Shown here piece after piece: positions 51,952 through 54,264 of a DNA stretch of 64,000 bases (position 1 is its first letter; the number at the start of each line of letters is the position of its first letter). The position numbers and the translations under genes were made by a program. The notes under the pieces are model-generated. The model was given only the letters and a program-made list of their open reading frames with translations. It did no database searches and had not been told where the DNA came from. Origin of the DNA: Armatimonadota bacterium (GTDB lineage: Bacteria > Armatimonadota > Fimbriimonadia > Fimbriimonadales > Fimbriimonadaceae); the NCBI GenBank assembly GCA_020438215.1, contig JAGQUX010000005.1:1-64000 (forward strand), written 5' to 3'.

Positions 51952-52536
51952 TTACTTCGAGAGTTCAATCATCAAAGGATAGATTTCTGGATCCATCAGC
52001 ACGTATCGGACCCAAAGGAGGAGCCTTTCCTTTTCTGTGTACTGTGAATCGTCAACTTCTGGATTGTAGATTTTCGGGTTTAGAGCCATTGCTGCAGATT
52101 TGATCTGGCCAGCGTTCAGGTGCTCTTCCATTGCTGCTGCGAGTTCATTAATTTGGACAGCAAGCAACTTGATTCGCTCCATATTAAAATTCGCTGCCAT
52201 CAACTGAATTTCTGCATTGAGCTCATCGCTCGGCAAAACCTGCTTCTCTTTTGCATCTTTCAACGCGGCTTGAACCTTCGCGTCGATTTTTGACATTTGG
52301 TCGAACTCGCGCTTTTCCAAATCCTTGACCGCCTGACGCTGTTTTTCCATCACCGGTAAAAGCTTTTTGATTTGCTCTTTGGTCATCAACACCGGCAGCA
52401 CTTGATTCAGCAAGTTAAGTTGATGAACGCGTCGCCCCATTTCCGTTGCTCGCGCAGAGTTATCAACCTGAGCAAAAGCCATCATGCTGATGAGCATCAG
52501 CCCCACCAGCGTTATCAATCGTAATGCGTGTTTCAT
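51952..52536 (-). CDS. Small secreted helical protein
   Basis: The 194-aa protein begins with a clear signal peptide (KHALRLITLVGLMLISMMAFAQ, cut after FAQ). The rest is almost entirely helical and charged (..LLPVMEKQRQAVKDLEKREFDQMSKIDAKV.., ..MERIKLLAVQINELAAAMEEHL..). It resembles Spy/CpxP-like periplasmic chaperones in shape only; the LTxxQ motif is seen weakly as LMTKEQ. AAGGAGAACA precedes the ATG, which overlaps the stop of the gene upstream (ATGA). Confidence 0.65.
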   Translation of the reverse strand: MKHALRLITLVGLMLISMMAFAQVDNSARATEMGRRVHQLNLLNQVLPVLMTKEQIKKLLPVMEKQRQAVKDLEKREFDQMSKIDAKVQAALKDAKEKQVLPSDELNAEIQLMAANFNMERIKLLAVQINELAAAMEEHLNAGQIKSAAMALNPKIYNPEVDDSQYTEKERLLLWVRYVLMDPEIYPLMIELSK

Positions 52537-52883
52537 TGTTCTCCTTCTTTGGTTTGGGACGCTTGAGATCGTGCGGGAGTTTCGTTTGCCAGCGCGGCTA
52601 GGATTTGTGCCGCACCCAGGGTCTGCATCCCGACAAAAACACATCCCAGAAATGCGCAGGCAATCCACGCTGGGATTGTCATCTGCCCATTCTGAATCCC
52701 GCCGGTCGATGCAAGCGCAAAGATCCCGGAAAAGAAAAAGAAAGCTCCTCCAAATAAGAAGAGAATGCCTTTCCATTTCCCACCGACTCCCGATAGCTGC
52801 CCCGGGCGTCCAAACTTGCGCCAAACCCAAATGCCAAACGCAATCCAAACAACGAAGCAGATCGCCGCTTGAGTCCAGAGCAT
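52533..52883 (-). CDS. Small membrane protein, function unknown
   Basis: The 116-aa protein has three hydrophobic segments (about residues 4-22, 38-58 and 71-94) and a polar tail. No family is recognised. TAAAGT ends six bases before the ATG, so it is probably leaderless. It is coupled to the secreted helical protein by a 4-base overlap and is divergent from the PfkB gene. Confidence 0.6.
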   Translation of the reverse strand: MLWTQAAICFVVWIAFGIWVWRKFGRPGQLSGVGGKWKGILFLFGGAFFFFSGIFALASTGGIQNGQMTIPAWIACAFLGCVFVGMQTLGAAQILAALANETPARSQASQTKEGEQ

Positions 52884-52923: not shown

Positions 52924-53850
52924 ATGGTTCTTGTCTACGGCACGATTTGTCTGGATCGTATCCATCGCGTGCCGAACTTGCCTCGCCCCGGCGGCTATGT
53001 TGAGATCGCCAGCACTGAGCTTCACCTCGGGGGAGAGGCAGCCAACACTGCCACCGCACTTGCTAAGTGGAAGGCCCCTACTATCCTTGCGGGAAATCGG
53101 CTTGGCAATGATGAATACACAAAATTTGTTCTCACACAACTGGAAGTAATGGGACTCAGAACAGATCACATTCAGTGTGGCGACTTCCAAACTCCGTTCT
53201 GTGAAATCTATGTCACTCCGGATGGGGAGCGGACGATGTTCGGTAGTGGGTTCGCGCAAATGCCCGAGCGATCCGATGCGAATGAACTCAATTCCATCGA
53301 ATTCGATTGGATTTCTGTGGATTGGAACCTGGGAGTAACGGCTTGGCGAGCCTGTGAGATCGCCAAAAACCAAGGCAAGAAAGTCTATGTTATGGATTTG
53401 GACTTGTCGGGTGCAGATCATAGGCCGATTGATTTCTGGCAATCCAGCACAGACACGTTCGGCGTCCGCGGAGATGAACAAGCAAATCTGCAATTTGTCA
53501 GCGAACAGGCAGGAAAGTATCATGGCATCCATATCCTCACCGATAGCCGGCGGGGAATCTATGTAAGTGGATTTGGTATCCCTTCAGTTCACATCCAGCC
53601 ATTTCCCATAGAACAACCGATCGACTCTACTGGTGCGGGAGATTGCTTCCGTGCAGGGATGCTCTACGGACTTGATCTGGGCTGGGAACTCGCCGATTGC
53701 CTTTCGTTTGCTTCGGCAGCTGGGGGCCTCAATGCCACGCGTGTTGGCGCGAATTCGAACATCCCCTCTCTTGACGAAATCCGAGCCCATATAGCGCGAT
53801 TCCCCGAAATTCAGGACGCTTTCCGCCAAGCCATTCCGCCGATGCGTTAG
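52924..53850 (+). CDS. PfkB/ribokinase family sugar kinase
   Basis: The 308-aa protein begins MVLVYGTICLDRIHRVPNLPRPGGYVE and has the glycine-rich GGEAANTATALAKWK. The C-terminal signature DSTGAGDCFRAGMLYGL contains the anion hole and catalytic Asp. It phosphorylates a sugar or nucleoside; the substrate is not predictable. No Shine-Dalgarno is present; CACAAT ends six bases before the ATG. Its TAG stop belongs to the TAGAAT element before the mntR-like gene, which continues in the same reading frame. Confidence 0.88.
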   Translation: MVLVYGTICLDRIHRVPNLPRPGGYVEIASTELHLGGEAANTATALAKWKAPTILAGNRLGNDEYTKFVLTQLEVMGLRTDHIQCGDFQTPFCEIYVTPDGERTMFGSGFAQMPERSDANELNSIEFDWISVDWNLGVTAWRACEIAKNQGKKVYVMDLDLSGADHRPIDFWQSSTDTFGVRGDEQANLQFVSEQAGKYHGIHILTDSRRGIYVSGFGIPSVHIQPFPIEQPIDSTGAGDCFRAGMLYGLDLGWELADCLSFASAAGGLNATRVGANSNIPSLDEIRAHIARFPEIQDAFRQAIPPMR

Positions 53851-53853
53851 AAT
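53848..53853 (+). promoter_or_regulatory. TAGAAT element before the mntR-like gene
   Basis: TAGAAT overlaps the PfkB TAG stop and is followed by six bases (CTTCTC) and an ATC codon. The identical hexamer also overlaps the upstream stop at 45714, where it precedes an ATG by six bases. Confidence 0.45.
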
Positions 53854-53859
53854 CTTCTC

Positions 53860-54264
53860 ATCTCCGATCCGACGCCTTTCCACCGCACTCGACAAGATCA
53901 CAGCCGGGAGACTGCGGAAGACTATGTTGAACTGATTCAAGAGCTAATTGAATCAAAGGGAGAAGCGCGCGCCACCGACCTCGCCGACAGGCTGGGCATT
54001 TCCAAAGTGGCCGTATCCAAAACTATCCAGCGATTAGCAAAAGAGGGACTCGTTGATAGTCAGCCTTATCGGAGCATCTTCCTCACTCAGGAAGGGCAGC
54101 AACTGGCCAAAGAAGCCAAAGAACGACACGTGGCCGTGGTCGAGTTCCTTCTCGCACTTGGAGTTTCTTCAGAAGTTGCGGAGATTGACGCCGAAGGGAT
54201 TGAACACCACGTCAGCGATGAAACCCTTACAAAAATGCGCGAGTTTGTCGCGAAGAAATCCTAA
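53860..54264 (+). CDS. mntR: MntR/DtxR family metal-dependent regulator, no canonical start codon
   Basis: The frame encodes DPTPFHRTR..ETAEDYVELIQELIES, a winged helix (ATDLADRLGISKVAVSKTIQRLAKEGLV), PYRSIFLTQEGQ.. and the metal-site segment DAEGIEHHVSDETL. This is full-length MntR, which represses Mn transport genes with Mn. Between the PfkB stop (53850) and this region there is no ATG, GTG or TTG. The first is a GTG at 54007, which would remove the first winged-helix part. I place the start at the ATC (53860), exactly six bases behind TAGAAT. A mutated ATG, true ATC initiation or read-through from PfkB are the options. Confidence 0.7.
   Translation: MSDPTPFHRTRQDHSRETAEDYVELIQELIESKGEARATDLADRLGISKVAVSKTIQRLAKEGLVDSQPYRSIFLTQEGQQLAKEAKERHVAVVEFLLALGVSSEVAEIDAEGIEHHVSDETLTKMREFVAKKS

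Follow-up and report, generated by a model that had tools for sequence, protein, structure and literature searches.

The mntR gene described here has no canonical start codon (ATG, GTG or TTG) at the beginning of its frame. Instead, its relatives conserve a putative -10 box, a spacing, an ATC or ATT codon and a small second residue, in a gene under purifying selection; these features are shown by the comparison of genomes. It is very probable that translation begins at the AUC at 53860, whatever the route, and probable, with less confidence, that a leaderless mRNA beginning with that AUC is the template for MntR. Both the transcription start and the N-terminus are inferred, without transcript or protein data. 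As part of this best explanation, mntR is probably a functional gene with MntR as its product, whose manganese-dependent repression is likewise inferred.

The mntR frame and its start region

The window is the whole stretch of DNA that was analysed, 64,000 nucleotides long, and its mntR locus belongs to a Fimbriimonadaceae (Armatimonadota) genome (labelled G000, contig 75). A preliminary description had claimed that a complete MntR comes after the TAG of PfkB in the same frame. This held and its coordinates were right: the stop occupies 53848-53850, the frame then stays open for 137 codons to a TAA at 54262-54264, and the protein encoded by 53851-54264 matches NCBIfam NF008273 over its whole length (189.3 bits against a cut-off of 153). 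PF01325 and PF02742 also match, and 2h09, the E. coli MntR, aligns to residues 7-132 counted from the ATC, i.e., it begins six residues past that codon. The likeness to E. coli-type MntR (NF008273/PRK11050; 2h09) covers the whole protein, metal- and DNA-binding parts alike, so that the window gene differs from this type in its start codon and expression signal only. The manganese-ligand set D8/E11/H77/E99/E102/H103, in the established MntR numbering, is kept in the alignments, and EDYVE holds two of these ligands, D8 and E11 in B. subtilis MntR numbering.

No ATG, GTG or TTG occurs in the frame until GTG 54007. The claim that this first usual start lies far inside the winged helix also held, as it is codon 50, in the DNA-binding domain. 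The codon score 5' of it is 0.18 per codon, equal to the coding mean of the genome, and the two other forward frames of the same region score negative. The preliminary description had further noted that TAGAAT plus six bases ends in ATG elsewhere and in ATC at 53860; both parts held, with ATG 45726 as such a case in the window. The pfkB TAG supplies the first three bases of this putative -10 box. The A of ATC 53860 is the predicted transcription start, inferred from sequence alone and without transcript data.

Table 1. Positions of the mntR features in the window and of the palindrome sites in five genomes
Feature	Position	Strand	Basis or remark
pfkB-family sugar kinase gene	52924..53850	+	PF00294, 108 bits; ORF
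Putative -10 box TAGAAT	53848..53853	+	sequence; matching boxes in relatives
Six-base spacer CTTCTC	53854..53859	+	not conserved, no Shine-Dalgarno sequence
ATC, proposed start codon	53860..53862	+	ATC in 7, ATT in 1 of 8 genomes
mntR, 134 codons plus TAA	53860..54264	+	NF008273 189 bits; 2h09 E. coli MntR 135 bits
Codon 2, TCC (Ser)	53863..53865	+	small residue, as expected behind a removable initiator Met
EDYVE, 5' of every canonical start codon	53917..53931	+	alignment with 2h09
GTG at codon 50 from ATC, where the first canonical start codon in the frame lies	54007..54009	+	within helix-turn-helix
Palindrome sites	G000 C108:57840-57853; G061 C1:110562; G062 C7:107454; G063 C1:374390; G030 C6:11218		

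Conservation of the start region in relatives

Matches came from each of the 85 family genomes; at 83 of the loci the start region allowed comparison. The closest relative is Uphvl-Ar1 (CP021423; L031, identical in sequence to G061), a single-contig genome whose MntR is 72% identical. Eight genomes from three genera share the unusual codon, seven having ATC and the eighth ATT. Five species of one genus have ATC: the window, Uphvl-Ar1/G061 (TAAAAT-ACACCC-ATC, given as box, spacer and proposed start), G062 (TAAAAT-AACCCC-ATC), G063 (CAGAAT-AGTTGCC-ATC) and G030 (TACACT-CCACCTC-ATC). ATC is also found in G015 (TACAAT-AGGTTG-ATC) and G041 (TACAAT-AGGTTC-ATC), both of genus g16, and ATT in G001 of genus g2 (TAAACT-ACGGTC-ATT). 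The same layout occurs in relatives with a GTG start, for example TAAAAT-GTCCCG-GTG (L150), TAGAGT-CCCACC-GTG (L159) and TACAAT-AGGTCAA-GTG (L115).

The distance from ATC/ATT to the Tyr of EDY is exactly 21 codons in all eight genomes, and codon 2 always encodes Ser, Ala or Thr (Ser, Ala, Ala, Ala, Ala, Ser, Ser and Thr). A TANNNT box of the leaderless type lies 6-7 bp 5' of the ATC/ATT in seven of the eight, G063 with its CAGAAT being the exception. None of the eight has a Shine-Dalgarno sequence before this codon, apart from a weak AGG in G015 and G041 only. These two genomes agree at 14 of 15 positions in the block preceding ATC, GGCTACAATAGGTT[G/C], which includes the -10 box, and at 5 of 15 in the bases before that.

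Six of the 83 loci (the window, G061, G062, G063, G041 and G001) are devoid of ATG, GTG and TTG all the way from the upstream in-frame stop to EDY. In G061 and its sister G062, the sole canonical codon in the whole mntR frame is an ATG, no. 126 of 138. The gene thus meets an infC-like criterion: a near-cognate start is kept in relatives without a canonical alternative. It is also under strong purifying selection, with a dN of 0.003 against a dS of 0.26 between G061 and G062, and a dN of 0.26 against a dS of 1.8 between the window and G061.

Of the 24 in-frame ATC codons counted over the 83 family loci, 8 have TANNNT at 6-7 nt, compared with 3.1% for other codons (p=7e-7), and six of these eight are the proposed mntR start codon. 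Note that this p value treats related genomes as independent, which they are not. The MntR tree is too weak to tell whether ATC arose once or three times. Outside the family, a canonical start was missing in one of 74 MntR loci, that of a Chromatiales bin. This unrelated mntR (L080) reads GAGGGACACCGCC-ATT-TCC and combines a Shine-Dalgarno-like leader, GAGGGA, with ATT.

Alternative explanations for the N-terminus

The preliminary description had left three options for the missing ATG: a leaderless ATC start, a mutated ATG or base error, and readthrough of the TAG into a PfkB-MntR fusion. The first is supported by the eight genomes, from three genera, that have ATC/ATT at a fixed distance behind a -10 box, and the other two failed. 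A mutated or misread ATG (a pseudogene or a base error in the assembly) could be suspected, as ATC is one substitution from ATG and the window comes from a 119-contig assembly. It is refuted because independent assemblies, one of them single-contig, show the same ATC, which seven genomes now share (at the place of 53860, ATC stands in Uphvl-Ar1 and three more relatives of the genus), and the strong purifying selection also speaks against it. We regard this explanation as practically ruled out. The same holds for readthrough, which draws support from pfkB and mntR sharing one frame in the window. However, the stop 5' of the mntR start is TAG in the window but TAA in G061 and G062, pfkB is in a different frame from mntR in G063 and G030, and the upstream gene is divergent in G015 and G041 and dapF in G001, so readthrough is refuted as a general mechanism. 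A frameshift from pfkB was rejected on the same comparison of upstream genes and start regions. A short protein starting at GTG 54007, the first canonical start in the window's frame, can be virtually dismissed too: it would be without the two manganese ligands of EDYVE and most of the DNA-binding domain with its helix-turn-helix, and the equivalent codon is missing in G061, G062 and G063.

The strongest rival accepts the AUC start but places it on a leadered mRNA, where a ribosome ending pfkB (or dapF) would re-initiate a few bases further on without a Shine-Dalgarno sequence. In its favour, the upstream gene ends only 9 bases 5' of the ATC/ATT in the window, G061, G062 and G001, 5 in G063 and 13 in G030. 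Against it, G015 and G041 keep both box and ATC despite a divergent upstream gene; since it is divergent, mntR must there have its own promoter and coupling is impossible. The leaderless-type box in seven of the eight genomes is a further objection, and we consider this rival unlikely. Less likely still is an N-terminus set by another non-canonical codon or a frameshift, with the conserved ATC being an ordinary Ile codon. Weak initiation is possible at any near-cognate codon, and there are candidates in G030 (GTG at -10) and in G015 (GTG at -17 and TTG directly 5' of ATC). However, a stop lies three codons 5' of the ATC/ATT in the window, G061, G062 and G001, no other near-cognate codon nearby is common to the relatives, and, amid varying neighbours, the position and the small second residue stay constant.

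Genome context, regulation and meaning

Start regions were surveyed in samples of G000 (264-267 kb) and G061 (400 kb). TANNNT is enriched 6-7 nt 5' of ATG in both (24/270 in G000, 26/395 in G061) and of GTG in G000 (9/140). Based on this enrichment, we infer from sequence alone that leaderless promoters are in general use in the window genome. One further gene, a small membrane-like protein gene divergent from pfkB (52533-52883, - strand), itself has a leaderless layout, with TAAAGT six bases before its ATG; Pfam gave no match for it. There was no sign of generally relaxed start-codon use: for ATC/ATT, the 239 and 366 called genes surveyed in the two genomes showed no peak at 6-7 nt.

Four of 69 orthologue pairs were flagged because both members aligned 5' of the first canonical codon; in two of these, mntR and infC, a canonical start is convincingly missing. 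The other two were judged spurious, one looking like a chance upstream alignment and the other coming from an overlapping upstream gene in a different frame. A 596-codon frame on the - strand of the window, from 35445, has conserved first codons after its stop (GCT ATT CGC), seemingly through such an overlap. The infC gene has an apparent ATT or ATC start behind GAGGTG in all eight genomes of the genus (L164-L171, of which L165 is G000 C22:9025-9495). The window genome has one ordinary initiator tRNA and one tRNA-Ile(GAU) of the ordinary type, and none of its 40 tRNA places holds a special initiator tRNA reading AUC.

In the leaderless mechanism that we favour, RNA polymerase would use the TANNNT box overlapping the end of the upstream gene, and transcription would start at or beside the A of ATC. 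The ribosome would bind the 5' end of the mRNA and initiate with the ordinary fMet-tRNA despite the third-base mismatch, AUC initiation itself being an inference. The initiator Met would then be removed, which we infer from the invariable presence of Ser, Ala or Thr at codon 2.

This mechanism resembles known systems in part. A -10 box 6-7 bp 5' of the start is the layout described for leaderless genes of Deinococcus-Thermus (PMC12340547), whose TANNNT box mntR shares; mntR differs in its ATC/ATT, and ATC starts are not mentioned in the sections of that paper that bear on the matter. Mycobacterial leaderless genes have their start at the 5' end and no Shine-Dalgarno sequence, as proposed for mntR, but there only ATG and GTG initiate leaderless translation, and ATC served as a negative control (PMC4633059). 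The infC gene (IF3) likewise has a conserved near-cognate start, AUU or AUC; however, infC of the genus appears to be a classical leadered case with GAGGTG as its upstream Shine-Dalgarno sequence, whereas mntR has none and has a -10 box in that place. Deinococcus deserti, a bacterium rich in leaderless genes, reportedly also has non-canonical initiation codons (N-terminal proteomics, 2010), a case that could be a precedent and lower the novelty of the mntR ATC.

Leaderless initiation in E. coli is stated to need AUG (review PMC9031893; start-codon survey PMC5622118). According to PMC9031893 and PMC4633059, the reason why AUG (E. coli) or AUG/GUG (mycobacteria) is needed is not understood. For 61,358 ancestral AUG starts, the survey (PMC5622118) found one switch to AUU, with no AUC switch on its list. 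In vitro, mismatches at the third base are disfavoured by IF3 (PMC10158994). The mntR ATC/ATT fails the published criterion of AUG or GUG for leaderless genes. This rule and the IF3 effect count against a leaderless AUC start, as do the deviating box of G063 and the upstream GTG or TTG of G030 and G015. Among the papers open to our searches, none deals in substance with leaderless genes in connection with Armatimonadetes or Fimbriimonas, and in none does 'leaderless' occur together with the phrase 'AUC start codon'.

What MntR regulates can be suggested only. In the genus, the three species with a canonical mntR start have mntR adjoining a divergent Nramp gene. The loci L116 (G049), L114 (G060) and L115 (G064) of the same genus carry an mntR of a different branch, with a GTG or ATG start and divergent from an Nramp gene. 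All five ATC species of the genus lack the Nramp gene, and Nramp and MntP were rejected as MntR targets there, both being missing. Each of the five carries a strong binding-protein gene of the ZnuA/MntA type together with ABC partners, and in all five the palindrome TTAACCWWGGTTAA, exact or closely varied, is found 5' of this gene, about 110-130 bp from its matched part; the pattern occurs only one to four times per genome. We suggest, without proof, that this palindrome is a candidate MntR operator and that MntR represses the mntABC (ZnuA-type) operon, repression being inferred. A link between ATC and transporter type fails across the family because G015 and G041 have both the ATC start and an Nramp gene. 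A search by eye for an operator in mntR's own promoter found no conserved palindrome, and the manganese riboswitch RF00080 gave no match above the cut-off.

As the most likely purpose of the arrangement, we put forward that a weak start keeps the MntR repressor scarce, which is inference only. A bolder reading, which we think very improbable, is that the leaderless AUC/AUU start has been retained because it acts as a control device and is more than merely weak. If it were true, use of the start would depend on the fidelity of initiation (the level of IF3, the availability of 70S, or Mn2+ itself loosening codon-anticodon discrimination), and MntR synthesis would directly read out ribosome state or manganese level.

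Under the favoured reading of a leaderless AUC start, there is a practical consequence: such genes would be overlooked or cut short by gene callers limited to ATG, GTG and TTG. Because the published rule is AUG in E. coli and AUG or GUG in mycobacteria, mntR would be a natural, conserved exception to it. If the reading is true, this leaderless AUC gene, from a bacterial family where leaderless promoters are in use, breaks the rule and would offer a ready test case.
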